Of a DNA stretch of 37,716 nt, positions 21,683 through 29,534 are shown piece after piece. The position numbers were made by a program, and so were the translations under genes. Source of the stretch: Leptolyngbyaceae cyanobacterium M33_DOE_097 (GTDB taxonomy: Bacteria > Cyanobacteriota > Cyanobacteriia > Leptolyngbyales > Leptolyngbyaceae); contig DVDV01000376.1 in the NCBI GenBank assembly GCA_015296075.1, positions 1-37,716 of the forward strand. Direction: 5' to 3'. Every line of letters begins with the position of its first letter. The first letter of the stretch is position 1. Under the pieces are notes generated by a model. That model saw only the letters and a list, made by a program, of their open reading frames with translations. It had not been told where the DNA came from and did not search any database.

Positions 21683-22117
21683 CTAGGTCGAGAAAAAATC
21701 TTGGGGCATTGCGATCGCCAACAAATCAGGCTCAACCCAGCCAAATCGAGCCTCAACCGACATCAATCGCGCTCGACTGTAATAGTGAAAGACCGAATGC
21801 TGATCAGCGTAAGCAATCAACTGATCAGCCAGTTCATCCAACGAGGGCGATCGGTCAGCTTGCTGTAAAAATTGGGCGATCAGCCAGACATAAAAGCGCG
21901 TAATGGTTTCGTGATAACCCTGCGTCTCCGTGTTCGCAACACCACAGGCAACATTGTATTGTCGGATGCGATCGCGCAAAAAAATTAGCGACTGCCCCGG
22001 CGACAGTTGCATCACATACCACAGGCCCACTCGCAAATGAGCGGCATGAGTCCATTCTGATTTAGGCAACCGACCTTCAAGAAACAACTGAACCGTGCTT
22101 TCTGTCTGAGTCAGCAT
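21683..22117 (-). CDS. Conserved hypothetical protein
   Basis: A 144-residue soluble protein not assigned to a named family. Conserved-looking features are WTHAAHLRVGLWYV near 22-35, GYHETITRFYVW (about 67-78), and an FHYYSRARLMS segment near 113-123. The repeated histidine-containing motifs (H, HL, HET, HYY) could be metal or substrate ligands, but this is speculation. It ends 45 bp before gcvT on the same strand and may be cotranscribed with it. A small hairpin (AGGCA/TGCCT) lies just upstream of its ATG, between it and yggT. Confidence 0.75.
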   Translation of the reverse strand: MLTQTESTVQLFLEGRLPKSEWTHAAHLRVGLWYVMQLSPGQSLIFLRDRIRQYNVACGVANTETQGYHETITRFYVWLIAQFLQQADRSPSLDELADQLIAYADQHSVFHYYSRARLMSVEARFGWVEPDLLAIAMPQDFFST

Positions 22118-22162
22118 AAAACCAGGCAGAGTGCCTCAGAAATTGGACTCACTCTCCATTCT

Positions 22163-22444
22163 TTAGTACATAGCTGATGGGATTGCTGCCACAGCTCGTT
22201 GAACAAACTGCAGTAACATAAACGCCAAAATCGGCGAAAAATCGATCCCACCCAGTGGGGGAATAAAAGACCGGAAGACGTTGAGGTAAGGATCGGTAAT
22301 TTGGCTCAGCGCTGCAAAAGGCTGATTGTACCAATCAACATTGGGAAACCAGCTCAGCAGAATGCGAATAAACAACAGCAAAGTGTAAATCGTGAGAAAG
22401 GTGCTGAGAGTGCTTACCAACGTATTAATTGCTTGTGGATCCAT
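22163..22444 (-). CDS. YggT family membrane protein
   Basis: A 93-residue protein with two membrane segments (FLTIYTLLLFIRILLSWF and the C-terminal FSPILAFMLLQFVQRAV). The linker NVDWYNQPFAALSQITDPYLNVFRSFIPP is the YggT signature. In plastids and cyanobacteria the family (YLMG/CCB3) is linked to nucleoid distribution and cytochrome b6f haem attachment. The start at ATG 22444 is preferred over a TTG at 22474, because AGAGGA then lies about 12 bases upstream. A 10-bp AT-rich hairpin (22478-22499) precedes the gene. Confidence 0.92.
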   Translation of the reverse strand: MDPQAINTLVSTLSTFLTIYTLLLFIRILLSWFPNVDWYNQPFAALSQITDPYLNVFRSFIPPLGGIDFSPILAFMLLQFVQRAVAAIPSAMY

Positions 22445-22608
22445 AGCTGTAATGATTCCTCTTTCAGCTGCCAATTATCAAAGTGACTAAAATTTTTTAG
22501 CCACACAATTCATATTCGAGTTTAGCATTCCTATTCAAAGACGAGCCGCGTCAATGTGAAGAGCCTAAAGGTTCTCAGTCTACCGATCTATCTACCTGAC
22601 TGGATCGA

Positions 22609-22926
22609 TCAATTCTCGCGGTTTGCCGGGGGCGCTTTGTCGGCTGTGGCATGTCCGCCATTGATGCCGCCAAGCTGCTGACGGACATCATCGATCGCGT
22701 CATTTAACTGAGCAATTTTTCCTTCTAGCTTGCGGCGGGCAACTTCCATATCAACGGGTTTGCCTTTGGGGGCTGCAAGCGTTCTGGGTTTACCTTCGGG
22801 CAAATTTTCGGGATCTTCTTCGGTGGTCAGGCGTGATGCCGTAATGGCTCCCAAAACACCACCAACAACGCCACCCACCAGAGTGCCCAGTAAAAAACCA
22901 CCTAAAAAGTTATCTCGCTGACTCAT
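22609..22926 (-). CDS. Small glycine-zipper membrane protein, conserved hypothetical
   Basis: A 105-residue protein starting MSQRDNF. A single hydrophobic glycine-rich segment, GGFLLGTLVGGVVGGVLGAI (about 8-27), resembles a glycine zipper or a YtxH-type membrane anchor. A charged linker with PEGKPRTLAAPKGKP follows, then a short predicted coiled coil (ARRKLEGKIAQLNDAIDDVRQQL). The start at 22926 is chosen over an upstream codon at 23010 that would lie inside upp. It follows upp by 37 bp on the same strand and is probably cotranscribed with it. Function unknown. Confidence 0.75.
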   Translation of the reverse strand: MSQRDNFLGGFLLGTLVGGVVGGVLGAITASRLTTEEDPENLPEGKPRTLAAPKGKPVDMEVARRKLEGKIAQLNDAIDDVRQQLGGINGGHATADKAPPANREN

Positions 22927-22963
22927 AACTAAAATAACCCCGTCGCTCTCTGCTCTTATTGTG

Positions 22964-23614
22964 TCACGTACCAAAGGTGCGATCGCCTGCGTCGCCCAAA
23001 CCCGGAACAATGAAGCCGCGATCGTTCACCGTTTCATCAATCATTGCCGCAAAGATTGCCAGCGCTGGATAATTTGCTCCTAATTTTTGTAACGCCATCG
23101 GAGCGGCAACAACTGAAATAATTCGGACATGCGCCGGATCAACACCCCGCTTCACCAACTCACCCATGGTTGCCATAATCGTGCCGCCTGTAGCCAGCAT
23201 CGGCTCTGAGATCAACACTCGTGTCTCAGGCGCAAACTGCTCAGGAAACTTATTGAGATAACAGGTCGCCTCTAAAGTCTCTTCATCACGCGCAAAACCG
23301 ATGTGATAAATCGACGCTAACGGCAACAGAGCCTGTGCCCCATCGAGCAATGCCAGCCCCGCCCGCAAAATTGGCACCACCACAGTTGGCACCTCTGGGT
23401 CAATAAACTTTGCCGGACAAGGAGCCAACGGCGTTTCAACCATCAGTTCTTTGGTTGGCAACCATTCTCGAATCGCTTCATAGGTCAGCCAGCGCCCTAA
23501 CTCTGTCATCGCACTGCGAAACAGCACATTCGGAGTCGAAGCATCTCGTGCGACACCTAACCAATGCTGAATCAAGGGATGAGGAGGAACGTAAACGCGC
23601 AATTGCTGAGTCAT
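22964..23614 (-). CDS. upp: Uracil phosphoribosyltransferase
   Basis: A 216-residue pyrimidine-salvage enzyme converting uracil and PRPP to UMP. The PRPP loop is EPMLATGGT (137-145). The uracil-binding C-terminus reads IVPGLGDAGDRTFGT. The PILRAGLALLDGA segment (81-93) is also diagnostic. The PRPP loop carries Glu137 where many bacterial enzymes have Asp in DPMLATGGS, a conservative change. No strong ribosome site precedes the ATG. It is divergent from the GNAT gene across 227 bp and followed closely by the glycine-zipper gene. Confidence 0.97.
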   Translation of the reverse strand: MTQQLRVYVPPHPLIQHWLGVARDASTPNVLFRSAMTELGRWLTYEAIREWLPTKELMVETPLAPCPAKFIDPEVPTVVVPILRAGLALLDGAQALLPLASIYHIGFARDEETLEATCYLNKFPEQFAPETRVLISEPMLATGGTIMATMGELVKRGVDPAHVRIISVVAAPMALQKLGANYPALAIFAAMIDETVNDRGFIVPGLGDAGDRTFGT

Positions 23615-23841
23615 AAGAGCGAGAGAAAGCTAGCGCTATCCATCATACTTCTTCCGGTTCAATCCAATTTTTGAATCCTGTGCTTTTTTGCTCGCGATCG
23701 CAAAAATTTGCGCCCTCTCAAGTAGATTGTGTTAGCCGCAACCCACCCAGCCCGTCAAGCCACAGCCTTACGTTACACTTTAGCGAAGCCTTGCCGCAGG
23801 CTTTAAGCCCCAGAAAATTTAGCCTTAGCGGAGCGATCGCG

Positions 23842-24306
23842 ATGCAAATTCGCCTGTTTCAACCAGAAGATGCCACCCAAATCGCCCAACTCTTTCATGA
23901 CACCGTGCGTGAAATCAATCGCCGTGATTACTCTGCGAGCCAGGTAGAAGCCTGGGCACCCGATGACCTCAATTTTCGCAATTGGGCTGAGACCTGCGCT
24001 CAACGATTTACCTTTGTTGCCGATGCTGGGGGCACCATCGCAGGCTTTGGCGAGCTAGAGGCTGACGGTCACATCGACTGCTTTTTTTGCCACAAAGACT
24101 ATCAGGGCAAGGGCATTGGGCAGCAGATTTATCAGGCGATCGAGACAAAAGCGTTAGAGTTGTCGCTTCAGCGATTGTTTGTTGAGGCCAGCATCACAGC
24201 TAAACCCTTCTTTGAACGGATGGGCTTTACCCTGATCAACGAGCAAACCGTTTCAGCCAGAGGCGAAAGCTTTATCAACTACGTCATGGAAAAAGAACTG
24301 AGCTAA
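23842..24306 (+). CDS. GNAT family N-acetyltransferase
   Basis: A 154-residue acetyltransferase. The acetyl-CoA loop is YQGKGIGQQIYQAIE (about 90-104), and the C-terminal KPFFERMGF strand completes the fold. The N-terminal segment HDTVREINRRDYSASQVEAWAP is characteristic of the YafP-like subgroup, whose substrates are mostly unknown. ATG 23842 is preferred over a TTG 171 bp upstream because GGAG lies directly before it and the domain begins there. Its stop lies 3 bp from the end of the convergent Nudix gene. A small-molecule or protein substrate cannot be chosen from sequence. Confidence 0.9.
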   Translation: MQIRLFQPEDATQIAQLFHDTVREINRRDYSASQVEAWAPDDLNFRNWAETCAQRFTFVADAGGTIAGFGELEADGHIDCFFCHKDYQGKGIGQQIYQAIETKALELSLQRLFVEASITAKPFFERMGFTLINEQTVSARGESFINYVMEKELS

Positions 24307-24309
24307 GCA

Positions 24310-24717
24310 TTAAACCTGTTGCAATAACCGAGGCCAGACAAACTCAGTCACCAGCGGCGCAACAGATTGATGAATTGGAGCCGCGATCGCCTGCCAAAAA
24401 ATTTCTTCGATTTCATTTTGCGGCAGCGGCTCCCCCACGAGTGCCCCCTGATAAACACTTGCCGTAATCAGCGTATCGGCTTCATTAGCGGCTGCAACCG
24501 TCACCTGCCCCCAAAAGTCAAAGCTGTCTGGAGCGATCGCGCAACCAATCTCTTCTTGCACCTCTCGCGTCAGTGCCGCAATATCGTCTTCCCCGGTAGC
24601 CAGTTTGCCACCAGGAAACATAAACCGTTGCGTGTGGCGCTTTCTCACAAGCAACAAATGGCGATCTCGCACAAACACCCCTGCCACAACCGAAATCACT
24701 GCTGCCGACACAACCAC
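24310..24717 (-). CDS. Nudix hydrolase, MutT-like
   Basis: A 135-residue single-domain Nudix protein that hydrolyses a nucleoside-diphosphate-linked compound. The Nudix box is complete from G37 to C59 (GX5EX7REVQEEIGC: E43, R51-E52, E55-E56). FMFPGGKL precedes it. The size and the KRHTQRFMFPGGK lead-in fit the MutT or general-purpose class, and substrates could be oxidised nucleotides. The start is GTG with AAGG close upstream; a second GTG two codons later is possible. It converges on the GNAT gene with a 3-bp gap. Confidence 0.9.
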   Translation of the reverse strand: MVVSAAVISVVAGVFVRDRHLLLVRKRHTQRFMFPGGKLATGEDDIAALTREVQEEIGCAIAPDSFDFWGQVTVAAANEADTLITASVYQGALVGEPLPQNEIEEIFWQAIAAPIHQSVAPLVTEFVWPRLLQQV

Positions 24718-24800
24718 CTACCTTGCCTGACTTGCCACAATTTTACGCCCATCATCCTACCGAGTTGAACCATGCCACAACGATCGCCCTCGTAGCCTCC

Positions 24801-24994
24801 GCCTCACCCCACCCGTACCTTCTGCCAGCGATCGAAGCATCAAACTTGCAACCCGTACCACTTGGCTAGCCAACCATTCAACACCTACCGACACCACCTT
24901 GCGGGGGTCGTAGGGGAGTGAGTCCCCTACACAGCGGGGGCGCGGGGGAAGTCCCCCGATCTGGCGGCTCCGCCGCCCCCAAAACTTCGCTTTA
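24801..24994. repeat. Dispersed hairpin-rich repeat, copy 1
   Basis: About 194 bp that match copy 2 at 30395-30589, nearly identical over the last 100 bp and partly diverged before that. The conserved block holds three hairpins: GTAGGGGA/TCCCCTAC (24910-24930), CGGGGG/CCCCCG (24943-24958) and GGCGG/CCGCC (24963-24974). Both copies begin GCCTCA, share GGCTAGCCAACCATTC, and end TTCGCTTTA. Confidence 0.85.
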
Positions 24995-25115
24995 TCCTGT
25001 TCTAACCCAAACGCTCCAGCCCCTCCTTCTCAAAAGCACAAATCCGCAGATAAAGGCGAGCTAGTAAGGCAACCGCTACATTCAGATTTGCCACTTGAGA
25101 AAGCAACCAAATCTA

Positions 25116-25144
25116 TTGACAATTATTTTCAATAAGACTATCTT
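25116..25144 (+). promoter_or_regulatory. Sigma70-type promoter upstream of the crtH-proximal RNA
   Basis: TTGACA (25116-25121) and TATCTT (25139-25144) are exactly 17 bp apart. Transcription would start near 25151, 30 bp before the terminator stem at 25181. Confidence 0.7.
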
Positions 25145-25150
25145 GAATTT

Positions 25151-25214
25151 AGTGTTCTCCTCTCTAAAGGATCGGCAGGTGGGATTGGTCGGCAGTTTTG
25201 ACCAGTCCCTTTTT
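25151..25214 (+). ncRNA. Candidate small RNA (about 65 nt) upstream of crtH
   Basis: A near-consensus promoter (25116-25144) is followed at about 65 nt by an intrinsic terminator, leaving no room for a protein. The predicted 5' part has a CU-rich stretch GUUCUCCUCUCU, which can form a small UCCU/AGGA hairpin and could pair with purine-rich ribosome sites. The 3' part is the terminator stem. This design resembles known cyanobacterial regulatory RNAs such as PsrR1 and Yfr1, though homology could not be tested. The alternative is a terminated leader (attenuator) of crtH. Confidence 0.5.
25181..25214 (+). terminator. Rho-independent terminator upstream of crtH
   Basis: GGGATTGGTC (25181-25190) pairs with GACCAGTCCC (25200-25209), a 10-bp stem with one G-T pair and a 9-nt loop, followed by five T residues. 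Confidence 0.8.
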
Positions 25215-25227
25215 GTTTGTGCAGGGT

Positions 25228-25255
25228 TTGACACCACTTACCGATAGACTAATAG
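25228..25255 (+). promoter_or_regulatory. Candidate crtH promoter
   Basis: TTGACA (25228-25233) and TAATAG (25250-25255) are 16 bp apart, directly after the terminator. The start would lie about 30 bp before the crtH ATG. A CCACT/AGTGG inverted repeat spans the spacer and -10 region and could bind a regulator. Confidence 0.5.
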
Positions 25256-25292
25256 TGGATAAAGACTGTTACAAATCGCGATCGCTCAAGTC

Positions 25293-26840
25293 ATGACTTC
25301 TCTGGCTCACCCCTCTCAAACCGATTTAACCGCTGATGATCTGCAATCTACCAATTGGGACGCGATCGTAATTGGCTCAGGCATTGGTGGCTTAGTCACC
25401 GCTACGCAACTAGCCGCCAAAGGTGCAAAAGTCCTTGTTTTAGAGCGTTACCTAATCCCTGGTGGCAGCGCGGGCTACTTTGAGCGCAACGGTTATCGGT
25501 TTGATGTCGGTGCCTCAATGATCTTTGGCTTCGGCAAGCAGGGCACCACCAATCTTTTGACACGGGCACTAGAAGCCGTTGATGTCGAGCTTGAAACTAT
25601 CCCCGATCCGGTTCAAATTCACTACCATTTGCCAGATAACTTAGATCTGAAAGTTCATCGCGAATATGAGAATTTCTTGCAAGAGCTAATCGCAAAATTT
25701 CCCCACGAGGAAAAGGGCATTCGTCAGTTTTATGGCGAGTGCTGGCAGGTGTTCAACTGTTTAAATGCAATGGAACTGCTTTCATTAGAAGAACCCCGCT
25801 ACCTGATGCGCGTCTTCTTTCAGCATCCCTTTGCCTGTCTAGGCTTAGTCAAATATCTGCCACAAAACGCCGGAGACATTGCGCGTCGCTACATCCACGA
25901 CCCGGCTCTGCTTAAGTTCATTGATATGGAGTGCTACTGCTGGTCAGTCGTCCCTGCTGACATGACCCCCATGATTAATGCGGGCATGGTTTTTAGCGAT
26001 CGCCATTACGGCGGCATCAACTACCCAAAAGGCGGCGTCGGTCAAATTGCCCAGAAGTTAGTCGAGGGGCTTGAGAAGCATCACGGCCACATTCGTTACA
26101 AGGCGCGTGTAACAAACGTCCTAATTGAGAATGGCAAAGCCGTTGGGGTACAACTAGCCACCGGAGAAACCTACCGGGCTAAGCGCATCATCTCAAACTC
26201 AACCCGGTGGGACACGTTTGAAAAGCTGATTCCTTCAGAGCAGATGCCCGCTGCTGAGCAACGCTGGCAAAAACGGTATCGTAAGTCACCCAGTTTTCTC
26301 AGCTTGCATTTAGGCGTCAAAGCCGAAGCCCTACCAGCAGGTACAGAATGCCACCACATCTTGCTCAATGACTGGGCCAAAATGGAAGACCCAGAAGGCA
26401 CCATTTTTGTGTCTATCCCTACGCTGCTAGATCCGACCCTGGCACCTGCCGATCATCATATTATCCATACCTTTACCCCCAGTTGGATCGAAGACTGGCA
26501 AGGCTTAACCCCCCAGGCTTATCAAGAGAAGAAAGAGGCGGCTGCCCAACAGCTCATCGCCCGGCTTGAGCAAATCTTTCCAAATTTGGCTCAACACTTG
26601 GATTATCAAGAAGTTGGCACACCCCGCACCCACCGTCGCTTTCTAGGTCGTGAGGATGGCACCTATGGCCCTATTCCGGCGCGTAAGCTGCTAGGGCTGC
26701 TAGGGATGCCGTTTAACCGCACCTCGATTCCGGGTCTTTATTGTGTGGGTGATAGCACCTTTCCAGGGCAAGGGTTAAATGCAGTGGCCTTTTCAGGCTT
26801 TGCCTGTGCCCATCGGGTGGCTGTCGATTTAGGCTTCTAA
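25293..26840 (+). CDS. crtH: Carotenoid cis-trans isomerase (prolycopene isomerase)
   Basis: A 515-residue FAD-dependent CrtISO-type enzyme that converts poly-cis lycopene to all-trans lycopene in carotenoid synthesis, likely at the thylakoid or cytoplasmic membrane. The dinucleotide-binding motif is [19 protein letters not shown] (26-44), ending in [15 protein letters not shown]. The C-terminal flavin motif is [22 protein letters not shown] (about 484-505). The long [20 protein letters not shown] and [13 protein letters not shown] segments are typical of CrtH rather than CrtI-type desaturases. The C-terminal end overlaps the convergent next gene by 12 bp. Confidence 0.95.
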
Positions 26841-27317
26841 ACTCGCTTTCAAACTTGCCAACAGCCCCGATAGAGCTTGATGCACGGACTCATGGGTGTA
26901 CTCGTCATCCGGGTGGGGAGCCTGCCCTGGCTTTTGAAAAAAGGGACGCTCTCCGTAGGTTTCGCCCCATTGCACATCCACCCGCCGCACAAACTCATAG
27001 AGTAACTCAGGATTAGCCACAATTTGCTCCAGCAGTTTAGAGAGAGCATTGAGCGGCGAATTTAAGTGACAACTCACATCTACCTCGTGGGTCTGCACCC
27101 AAGTCTTGAGCGCCGCTTTTAACGCACCCGATGAATCCGTGAGGTTGTACTCAATGTAAAGCAAAATTTCGGTGGTGGCTTGTACGAGCTTGGGTACGGG
27201 CGAATCACCCTTCATAAAAGACCCAGCTTCTTTGCCAATCACATCAGCCAACGAGAACGATCGCCCCTTCAGGATGTCTCGCTCAAGCTCACAACTGTTG
27301 CCGTCCGTCTCTGTCAT
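26829..27317 (-). CDS. Conserved cyanobacterial hypothetical protein
   Basis: A 162-residue soluble protein without a named family. The start at ATG 27317 ([13 protein letters not shown]) is preferred to a TTG at 27353. Conserved-looking parts are [15 protein letters not shown] near 19-33, [19 protein letters not shown], and a helical C-terminal half. It is acidic with no signal peptide or membrane segment. Its last 12 bp overlap the 3' end of crtH on the other strand, so the two transcripts are antisense at their tails. It lies 48 bp downstream of the small gene at 27366-27593 on the same strand. Confidence 0.75.
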
Positions 27318-27365
27318 AGCACCAGCTAAGCATCGATATAATTTGGCTGTCAATCAGTCGATAAG

Positions 27366-27593
27366 TTAATCAACAACTCGTAAACGGCCTGATCGCAATA
27401 ACTCAAAGACTTGATTGGCTAAATCACGCTCCATGCTCGTAATGGTTTTGTGATTCATCAGTGCTGCCATGAAACGCTGCTGGTCTGCGCGAGTGATTTT
27501 CCCAGAATCAATGATTGCCTTAAAGAGTTGTTGAAACTCAGTGCGAGGTGGATTTGGATTGTGGTCACTCATTTTGTAAGTAGATGCAGTCAT
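27366..27593 (-). CDS. Small conserved cyanobacterial protein
   Basis: A 75-residue mostly helical protein (68 residues if the second ATG at 27572, MSDHNPN, is used). The core TEFQQLFKAIIDSGKITRAD, then QQRFMAALMNHKTITSMERDL, and the terminal FELLRSGRLRVVD recur in cyanobacterial genomes as a small protein of unknown function. Neither start has a clear ribosome site, so the true N-terminus is undecided. It precedes the gene ending at 26829 on the same strand and may be cotranscribed. Confidence 0.75.
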   Translation of the reverse strand: MTASTYKMSDHNPNPPRTEFQQLFKAIIDSGKITRADQQRFMAALMNHKTITSMERDLANQVFELLRSGRLRVVD

Positions 27594-28154
27594 AGCAGCG
27601 CACGGTTTTTGGACACTAAGTTAAAGTAACAGCAAATCCAAAGAAATACTGTAAAACTCAAAACGTTTGGGCAACTTTTTGAACTGTCACTTTTATTCTT
27701 TAGAAATAGACTTAATTCGTATATCCCTAAATTTTCTCACGATTTGCGACTCAGATTTATGGCGTACCTTTTACTGCAAATCGAGGGCTTAATCCCAATA
27801 AATTCGTTTCTTAATTTAAGCAAAATGGCTGGTTTTTCAAGAAGCGTAAATCCACCGAAAGTAATAGCAGAAGGACTTTTCTAATTCGCGTTTCAACTCA
27901 ACCAAACGATAGATGAAAGAAATTATTTCTATCTTTTAATTCGAAGAATTGCGTAGTTTTCACTAAAGACAACTGCTTTTCTGAATGGCAGTTCAGCAGA
28001 ATTAACCAAAGCTTCATTTCAGTAGAGGGAAATTTTGAGGAGCCTTTACAAACTTCTGAAATCGAGTTTGTATTGTGGGAGCAGAAGCGATCGCCGATTT
28101 TCTCTCCATCTACCATCGCGATCGCAGCCACAGCAGAAAATAAGGACTGAATCA
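27594..28154. other. AT-rich intergenic region with an 8-bp inverted repeat
   Basis: These 561 bp are noticeably AT-rich and contain no convincing gene. CGATTTGC (27740-27747) and GCAAATCG (27776-27783) form a perfect inverted repeat with a 28-nt spacer. A second AT-rich hairpin followed by TTTT lies near 27910-27940. An open frame on the minus strand (27898-28200) has no homologue-like character and overlaps the next gene. Confidence 0.5.
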
Positions 28155-28457
28155 ATGGCTGATTCTGCTTTTTACTTCCTCTCCTCTTTCCTTCAATCAC
28201 GTCAGACTCGCTTCAATTTCTTGCAGCCCTTGCGGCAGTGGATTGATAGTCTCGAAATTAACAACCCTAAAATGGCTCGTCTGATTTACTGGTTAATCCC
28301 TGGCAATTGCCCGTTTGAGCGCGATGTCAAAGTATTTGGACGCACAGTGCTGCACATTCCTCCCCTGTGCAAGCTCAACCCACTATACGAGCAGCTTGTG
28401 GGGCTACGGTTTCGATCGCTCTGTTACCTGGTCGATACCTGCGGTGAAACACCTTAA
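28155..28457 (+). CDS. Mo-dependent nitrogenase C-terminal-domain-like protein
   Basis: A 100-residue protein of the family named after the C-terminal region of Mo-dependent nitrogenase proteins (Mo-nitro_C), found widely in cyanobacteria including non-fixers. Conserved parts are LQPLRQWIDSLEINNPKMARLIYWLIPGNCPFERD and the IPPLCKLNPLYEQLVGLRFR segment. Cysteines at C52, C70, C88 and C94 are visible, but ligand roles are not established. AAGGA sits eight bases before ATG 28155, which is favoured over an upstream in-frame start at 28035. No nif genes are in the window. It converges on the CobW gene with a 33-bp gap. Confidence 0.85.
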   Translation: MADSAFYFLSSFLQSRQTRFNFLQPLRQWIDSLEINNPKMARLIYWLIPGNCPFERDVKVFGRTVLHIPPLCKLNPLYEQLVGLRFRSLCYLVDTCGETP

Positions 28458-28490
28458 CGACAGCTTAGCGGCACTGACTCCACCCCAAAC

Positions 28491-29534
28491 TCAATTGGCA
28501 GCTTGTTGTAATTGAGCCGAAATTGCGGCAGTGTCGAGAGCCTTACCGATGAAAACGAGCTGAGTTTGGCGGGTTTCGTCGTTTTTCCAGGGGCGATCGT
28601 AGTAGTGTTCAAAGCGGTTGCCGACCCCTTGCAGCACCATTCGCATGGGCTTTTGTGGCACTGAAACAAACCCCTTAATGCGATAAATCTCGTGCTGATT
28701 GACCAACGCCTCAAGCTGTTGTCGCAACTTTTGAGGCTCAAACTCTTGCTCTAACACCAATTGAGTCGCCACAATCTCATCGTCGTGATCGTGATCTTCT
28801 TCGGTGTCGTGGTGACTCGGACGACTCGCCAAATTATCTTCAACCGCTGCCTGAAAACCAAGCAATACCTCCGGATCGAGCTGACCTCGCTGACTCGCCA
28901 CAATCTTGACCGCTCGTGGCAACTCTGCCTGGATCCGGTCAACAACCGCCGCTTGAGCCACTTCGTCAACGAGATCCGTCTTGTTAAGAATCACCAAGTC
29001 GGCACAGGCCAACTGGTCTTCAAATAATTCCTGAATCGGCGTTTCATGATCTAAACTGGGATCCGCTTGGCGCTGAGCTTCTAGTGCTTCCAGATCAGCC
29101 GCGATCGCCCCCGTTGAGACTGCTTCGCAATCAACCACCGTAATCACCCCATCCACCGTGGCAGCGTTGCTAATCTCCTGCCAGCGAAAAGCTTTGACCA
29201 ACGGTTTTGGCAGCGCCAGCCCAGAGGTTTCAATCAAAATATGGTCAATGCGATCGCGCCGTTTGAGCAGCTCTTGCATCGTTGGCAAAAACTCTTCTTG
29301 CACAGTGCAGCAGAGGCAGCCATTTGTCAGCTCAACAATATTCGTTTCAGCGTCCTCATCATCACAGACCTGGCAGCTGCGCAGCAGTTCACCATCGATC
29401 CCCAGTTCGCCAAACTCGTTGACTAATACAGCAATTCGGCGTTGCTGGTTGTTTTGCAGCAAGTGTCGAATCAGGGTTGTCTTACCGCTACCCAAAAAGC
29501 CAGTAATCACTGTAACGGGAATTTTTGCTGCCAT
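28491..29534 (-). CDS. cobW: CobW/COG0523 family GTPase metallochaperone
   Basis: A 347-residue P-loop GTPase. Walker A is GFLGSGKTT (12-20), the metal-binding motif GCLCC lies at 72-76, the nucleotide specificity motif NKTD is at 184-187, and a His/Asp-rich stretch (HHDTEEDHDHDDE, 241-253) can hold metal. The C-terminal CobW_C domain includes EIYRIKGFV. The family delivers zinc or cobalt to client enzymes. In cyanobacteria such genes are often labelled cobW, but no cobalamin genes are present here, so the metal and client are unsure. ATG 29534 is chosen over a frame 156 bp longer because homology begins there. Confidence 0.92.
   Translation of the reverse strand: MAAKIPVTVITGFLGSGKTTLIRHLLQNNQQRRIAVLVNEFGELGIDGELLRSCQVCDDEDAETNIVELTNGCLCCTVQEEFLPTMQELLKRRDRIDHILIETSGLALPKPLVKAFRWQEISNAATVDGVITVVDCEAVSTGAIAADLEALEAQRQADPSLDHETPIQELFEDQLACADLVILNKTDLVDEVAQAAVVDRIQAELPRAVKIVASQRGQLDPEVLLGFQAAVEDNLASRPSHHDTEEDHDHDDEIVATQLVLEQEFEPQKLRQQLEALVNQHEIYRIKGFVSVPQKPMRMVLQGVGNRFEHYYDRPWKNDETRQTQLVFIGKALDTAAISAQLQQAAN

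Follow-up and report, generated by a model that had tools for sequence, protein, structure and literature searches.

The analysed window, i.e., the whole stretch of 37,716 nucleotides from the Leptolyngbyaceae cyanobacterium M33_DOE_097, contains a compact unit of promoter, small RNA and terminator on the forward strand, which lies upstream of the carotenoid isomerase gene crtH and downstream of the divergently oriented upp gene. The following features are needed for the description of this locus; the last one lies outside the window, on another contig of the same genome.

25116-25144, plus strand: sigma-70-type promoter TTGACA-17-TATCTT, recognised from its sequence and from the presence of TTGACA at about the same place in 79 of 82 promoters

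25117-25131, plus strand: TGACAATTATTTTCA, a 7-1-7 inverted repeat that resembles a Fur box and overlaps both the -35 element and the spacer, based on sequence and family consensus, weak for the window alone

25151-25214, plus strand: small RNA of about 64 nt (predicted), very probably an IsaR1 orthologue, based on conservation in 29 of 29 fetched loci of relatives, covariance model R1, and synteny with crtH and upp

25155-25165, plus strand: CU-rich segment TTCTCCTCTCT, pairing box A, the UCCUCUC of which pairs in silico with GAGAGGA at ribosome-binding sites

25169-25179, plus strand: GGATCGGCAGG, pairing box B, with in silico complementarity to UGCYGWUUC-like boxes immediately 5' of the ribosome-binding site

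25181-25214, plus strand: intrinsic terminator with a stem of 12 pairs, a loop of 5 nt and then TTTTT, based on sequence, predicted fold and covariation

25243-25250, plus strand: GATAGACT, which may serve crtH as the -10-like element of a separate promoter, with GATA[A/C/G]ACT in 12 of 58 spacers of relatives

25293-26840, plus strand: crtH, carotenoid isomerase (TIGR02730, 961.7 bits versus a cut-off of 586.9), a conserved downstream neighbour and not a predicted target

22964-23614, minus strand: upp, uracil phosphoribosyltransferase (NF001097 and TIGR01091, both over the cut-off), the conserved divergent upstream neighbour

L158:3578-5209 (contig C9 of the same genome), minus strand: ndhC-ndhK-ndhJ, the leader of which is predicted to pair best with IsaR1 of the 225 gene starts sampled

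The promoter consists of TTGACA (25116-25121), a spacer of 17 nt and TATCTT (25139-25144), and transcription is predicted to start at A25151, the first base of a block that is conserved in relatives. The transcript would end after a stem-loop (25181-25209) that is followed by TTTTT (25210-25214). This order of promoter and intrinsic terminator had been proposed in an earlier sequence-only reading and is confirmed, as is the run of five T residues, while the stem has 12 pairs instead of the 10 that had been counted. A pattern scan of positions 22000-29000 revealed seven promoter-like sites, compared to a mean of 5.9 in shuffled sequences, and nine terminator-like sites, compared to 8.3, the terminator of the small RNA having the longest stem among the nine. 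Therefore, the patterns alone are at chance level, and it is their conservation that lifts the locus above chance.

A DNA search with a query that included the promoter matched 39 of 58 genomes, the own genome included, and the loci of the best 29 of the 38 matching non-self genomes were fetched. All 29 have, in this order, a TTGACA promoter, AGTGTTCTCCTCTC, GGATCGGCAGG or a close variant of it, and a terminator. Conservation of the promoter, the CU-rich stretch and the terminator in relatives had been chosen beforehand as one of two tests on which the proposed gene was to stand or fall, and all three are conserved. Model R1, a covariance model built from the body of the RNA with the promoter left out, matches 103 of 386 cyanobacterial genomes at E-values up to 0.01, and 84 of the 386 with at least 30 bits, a hand count that includes the own genome and some members of the model. 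A laxer run of the model yielded 29 matches in 24 genomes, and of the 20 that were inspected six were real (L228-L232 and the diverged L238). The E-values of the other 14 are all 4e-5 or weaker, and these matches resemble fortuitous terminators or coding sequence. Because so many of the weak matches are chance-like, the low end of the 103 genomes was discounted and the number of 84 was relied on. L238 (genome G037, positions 578-644) is a diverged isaR1-like copy, in which ACTCCTACTCCTCTC replaces AGTGTTCTCCTCTC and which has a TTGACA/TATATT-type promoter; the ferredoxin leader fetched from this genome is devoid of GAGAGGA.

The alignment also shows covariation, with a score of 0.312 versus 0.187 in shuffles, and the number of cells with changes on both sides, all of them in the terminator stem, is 26 versus 8.3; neither value was reached in any of 500 shuffles. 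The number of stem pairs that have changed on both sides is 6 of the 10 counted in 30 sequences, versus 4.3 in shuffles, a value that 70 of 500 shuffles reach. The whole RNA folds better than shuffled sequences (z -2.5 and -2.6), and the 29 nt at the 5' end fold no better than those (z 0.03). The CU-rich stretch had been described as exposed. It is indeed present at 25155-25165; its exposure is only partial, since the fold prediction places its UCCU opposite AGGA in a weak hairpin at the 5' end. As for a possible peptide, a reading frame that begins with the GTG at 25152 has no stop codon in the translated stretch, which runs into the terminator.

The sequence-only reading had pointed to the cyanobacterial RNAs PsrR1 and Yfr1, and thus to a known small RNA acting in light acclimation or in general stress. 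The small size and the CU-rich segment agree with this, and a sub-threshold match of the window to the PsrR1 model RF02701 (15.2 bits, E 4.3) shares the motif UUCUCCU. However, this match stays 27 bits below the gathering score of 42, and PsrR1 has a length of 131 nt (PMC6202907) and has been reported to be induced by high light (PMC6091082). A search with the PsrR1 model found no match in the own genome, and control genomes were equally devoid of matches, so that this negative result carries no weight. Yfr1 is already refuted as an identity, the window having no match to RF01116 and the Yfr1 gene of this organism being found elsewhere in the genome (G000:C233:3829-3892, 60.4 bits). The search of the window against Rfam 15, which had been suggested as a check, retrieved no family at its gathering score, PsrR1 and Yfr1 included; the same is true for 10 homologue loci, and no credible family appeared at E-values up to 10. 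It is thus exceedingly improbable that the RNA is one of these two.

The genomic neighbourhood was compared in 81 homologue loci, which span about 1.5 kb on each side of the RNA. In 58 of them the crtH gene follows the RNA on the same strand, and in 61 upp lies upstream in divergent orientation; 48 loci have both genes and 10 have neither. In the window, a GNAT acetyltransferase gene (plus strand) and a NUDIX gene (minus strand) lie at 23671-24717 between upp and the small RNA; upp is within about 1 kb of the RNA in many loci of relatives. The region between the NUDIX gene and the small RNA (24901-24987) contains G+C-rich stretches with the potential to form hairpins, GTAGGGGAGTGAGTCCCCTAC and GGGGGAAGTCCCCCG, which have only chance-level Rfam matches.

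Both upp and crtH have been named together with a characterized small RNA. A review from 2026, citing the IsaR1 paper of 2017, lists upp and crtH as target genes of IsaR1 of Synechocystis 6803 (PMC13414033). Pairing was assessed against a background of 225 gene starts, sampled from the window plus roughly 303 kb of the same genome, using duplex energies that ignore the folding of the target. Among these 225 starts there is no pairing signal for crtH (percentile 80) or upp (percentile 61). Therefore, we read both as neighbours of the RNA and not as targets, and the target label of the review would seem to stem from a mix-up with the neighbours.

The position of the RNA also gave rise to the proposal that it acts as a leader or attenuator of crtH. 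Transcription from the promoter at 25116 would then, under certain conditions, read through the terminator, crtH would be under iron control, and the small RNA would be a by-product or a leader with a dual function. The frequency of crtH on the same strand (58 of 81 loci) fits to this proposal, as does the distance between the 5' end of the RNA and the first usable start codon of crtH, which is at most 150 nt in 20 of the 58 loci (some with doubtful TTG codons), 142 nt in the window, and 116 nt in a locus of the genus Synechocystis (L062), in which a further promoter would hardly fit. However, the spacing of the RNA and crtH varies from about 60 to more than 1000 nt, while the 5' block of the RNA is nearly invariant, boxes that fit its 5' half are found in genes not linked to it, and a single consensus fold is predicted, without a competing antiterminator. 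In addition, a separate element, GATA[A/C/G]ACT, is located ahead of crtH in the window and in 12 of the 58 relatives. It appears to be a better candidate for the crtH promoter than the second promoter that had been noticed in the window, TTGACA-17-AATAGT at 25228-25256, the letters of which are there but which is not conserved, as TTGACA is found in only one of 58 spacers between the RNA and crtH in relatives. Taken together, a leader or attenuator role is not supported for crtH, and we consider it improbable. It is least improbable in lineages in which no more than about 50 nt separate the terminator from the crtH start, e.g., L062. In L062, L056, L079 and similar loci, crtH follows soon after the terminator, with little room for a separate promoter. 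In such lineages, expression of crtH by read-through during iron starvation is possible.

In the set of 82 promoters of the small RNA (the window and 81 homologues), the spacer is itself conserved, with the family consensus TTGACAnnnATTCTCAATAA. Such conservation is not known to be required by a sigma factor alone. The consensus of FurA in Anabaena is AAATAAATTCTCAATAAAT (PMC4005646), and the best match of the 82 promoters to this Anabaena consensus comprises on average 13.2 of 19 positions, compared to 10.8 in dinucleotide shuffles. Matches of at least 13 of 19 positions are present in 59 of the 82 promoters, versus 5.8% of the shuffled sequences. The match of the window itself is modest, with 13 of 19 positions in a shifted register and, by eye, 12 of 19 in the conserved register. 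Across the RNA family, the promoter spacer can thus be described as Fur-box-like.

Candidate targets were analysed with leaders of sufB, acnB, chlN and the best TIGR02008 ferredoxin gene per genome, a candidate Fed1 orthologue, from relatives. The median percentile of pairing of the ferredoxin leaders is 2.2 in genomes with the small RNA (n=19) and 14.2 in genomes without a credible copy (n=7), and for sufB the respective values are 5.8 (n=19) and 84.4 (n=7); most of the genomes without the RNA belong to relatives at a greater distance. The own ferredoxin leader has a duplex energy of -25.9, which was reached by 73 of 9000 shuffled leaders, and the own sufB leader is only at the 13th percentile. 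Many ferredoxin leaders have a common architecture: TGCCGTTTC or TGCTGTTTC, a few bases, GAGAGGA, and then the ATG. GAGAGGA occurs in 19 of 19 ferredoxin leaders from genomes with the RNA, in three of seven from genomes without it, and in two of the 225 background starts; for TGCYGW followed by GAGAGGA the numbers are 13 of 19, none of seven, and one of 225. These results support the earlier proposal of a free-standing small RNA that is able to pair with ribosome-binding sites. As counter-evidence, both boxes were also found in two of three ferredoxin leaders of a group classified as unsure, G009 (L187) and G011 (L188), genomes with only chance-like matches to the model. With about 450 and 360 contigs, respectively, both assemblies are fragmented, and a copy of the RNA may have been missed; it is also possible that the boxes have outlived the RNA. 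For acnB and chlN there is no pairing signal in genomes with the RNA, with median percentiles of 40.9 (n=17) and 32.2 (n=20), respectively, and they are unsupported as targets.

Among the 225 sampled gene starts of the own genome, the leader of ndhC-ndhK-ndhJ is the best partner, with a duplex energy of -34.7 kcal/mol. This value was reached by none of 9000 shuffled leaders and by one of 2000 shuffled small RNAs. The leader, CTGCTGATTCCAGAGAGGATGCACT, precedes a GTG start codon. NdhC is just below the cut-off of one model (154.8 versus 163 bits), and the two genes that follow ndhC score above the cut-offs of the models for subunits B/K and J. A gene with a rubredoxin match below the cut-off (66 versus 90 bits) lies divergently upstream of this gene cluster. 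Among the papers searched, which comprised work other than the original IsaR1 paper of 2017, PMC6091082 is the only one that mentions both IsaR1 and ndhC, and it names ndhC for heat, without a link to IsaR1. NDH-1, the respiratory complex, is possibly new as an IsaR1 target. That the RNA uses a two-box grip and, besides ferredoxin, directly silences ndhC-ndhK-ndhJ is suggested by the predicted duplexes, with the ndhC leader analysed in this single genome, and we regard the chances for and against it as evenly balanced.

From gene structure, conservation, covariation, synteny and complementarity we infer a model with Fur binding, induction by iron starvation and a block of translation as its steps. 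With ample iron, Fur-Fe(II) would be bound to the AT-rich box that spans the -35 element and the spacer, and would keep the gene silent. Iron starvation would release Fur, and the RNA of about 64 nt would be transcribed up to the intrinsic terminator. Two boxes, UCCUCUC and GGAUCGGCAGG, lie in the 5' half of the RNA. The former is predicted to pair with the ribosome-binding site GAGAGGA of the ferredoxin and ndhC leaders and the latter with a UGCYGWUUC-like box, the end of which lies 1-8 nt upstream of GAGAGGA, while in the own sufB leader GUUCUC is predicted to pair with GAGAAC instead. The entry of ribosomes would be blocked, so that iron-rich proteins, i.e., ferredoxin, the SUF machinery, and probably NDH-1, would no longer be made. 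The RNA of the window would thus be a Fur-repressed, iron-sparing and trans-acting RNA. If the silencing of ndhC is true, the same RNA would cut both NDH-1 cyclic electron flow and respiration in iron starvation.

The small RNA gene at 25116-25214 is real, and it is mostly a known thing. We are highly confident that it is the isaR1 gene of M33_DOE_097 and that its product is an orthologue of IsaR1, an assignment that is based on synteny, length, promoter and targets and not on the letters of the PCC 6803 RNA. IsaR1 has a length of 68 nt (PMC6202907), which compares well with the short, free-standing RNA of 64 nt with its own promoter and terminator predicted here, and it is conserved and repressed by Fur (PMC7760821). 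The listed targets are fed1, petJ, sufBCDS, sodB, petABDC1, acnB, hemA and chlN (PMC8136909), and targeting of fed1 and sufBCDS is in agreement with the in silico pairing. Target lists may differ between lineages, and acnB and chlN were therefore not treated as defining IsaR1. The published PCC 6803 gene has its start at TSS 3164320. All five genomes of the genus Synechocystis in our set contain a homologue (best matches to model R1 of 31.8-39.1 bits), and four of the five loci (L062, L063, L065 and L081) have crtH downstream. The window shares the location at upp and crtH with many of the homologue loci. As the identity rests on properties, without a direct comparison of the IsaR1 letters, the RNA might alternatively belong to a family that is homologous and syntenic across cyanobacteria, yet distinct from IsaR1, e.g., another Fur-regulated small RNA. 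However, upp and crtH are the very genes that have been tied to IsaR1 (PMC13414033), and length, putative Fur-type promoter, wide spread, and predicted pairing with ferredoxin and sufB all coincide with IsaR1. Therefore, we consider a distinct family to be very unlikely.

The identification as IsaR1 corrects a plausible mis-assignment, to a light-response RNA or a crtH attenuator, to a role in iron-stress control. A covariance model is now given for a widespread regulator for which Rfam 15 has no match in the window and in 10 homologue loci. Furthermore, the two-box pairing rule is testable, and the Fe-S-bearing NDH-1 complex is possibly a new target for the sparing of iron.

Among known systems, the RNA is closest to IsaR1 of Synechocystis PCC 6803 and its homologues, with which it has in common the size, the upp/crtH neighbourhood, the putative Fur-type promoter, the wide conservation, and the complementarity to ferredoxin and sufB leaders. 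It differs from the version of the genus Synechocystis in the letters of the boxes, with the form AGTGTTCTCTTCTCAAGGATTCAGTRGG in the four genomes inspected there. Further differences are the two genes that separate the RNA from upp in the window, and that pairing with acnB and chlN is not seen here. PsrR1 is likewise a CU-rich cyanobacterial small RNA and affects photosynthesis genes, but it is about twice as long, and its model scores far below the gathering score. Yfr1 is also a short cyanobacterial small RNA, but its gene occupies another place in the same genome. RyhB and PrrF are proteobacterial small RNAs that are repressed by Fur and spare iron. In function the RNA of the window would be like these, and no membership is claimed: a Fur-repressed RNA would shut down proteins that use iron.
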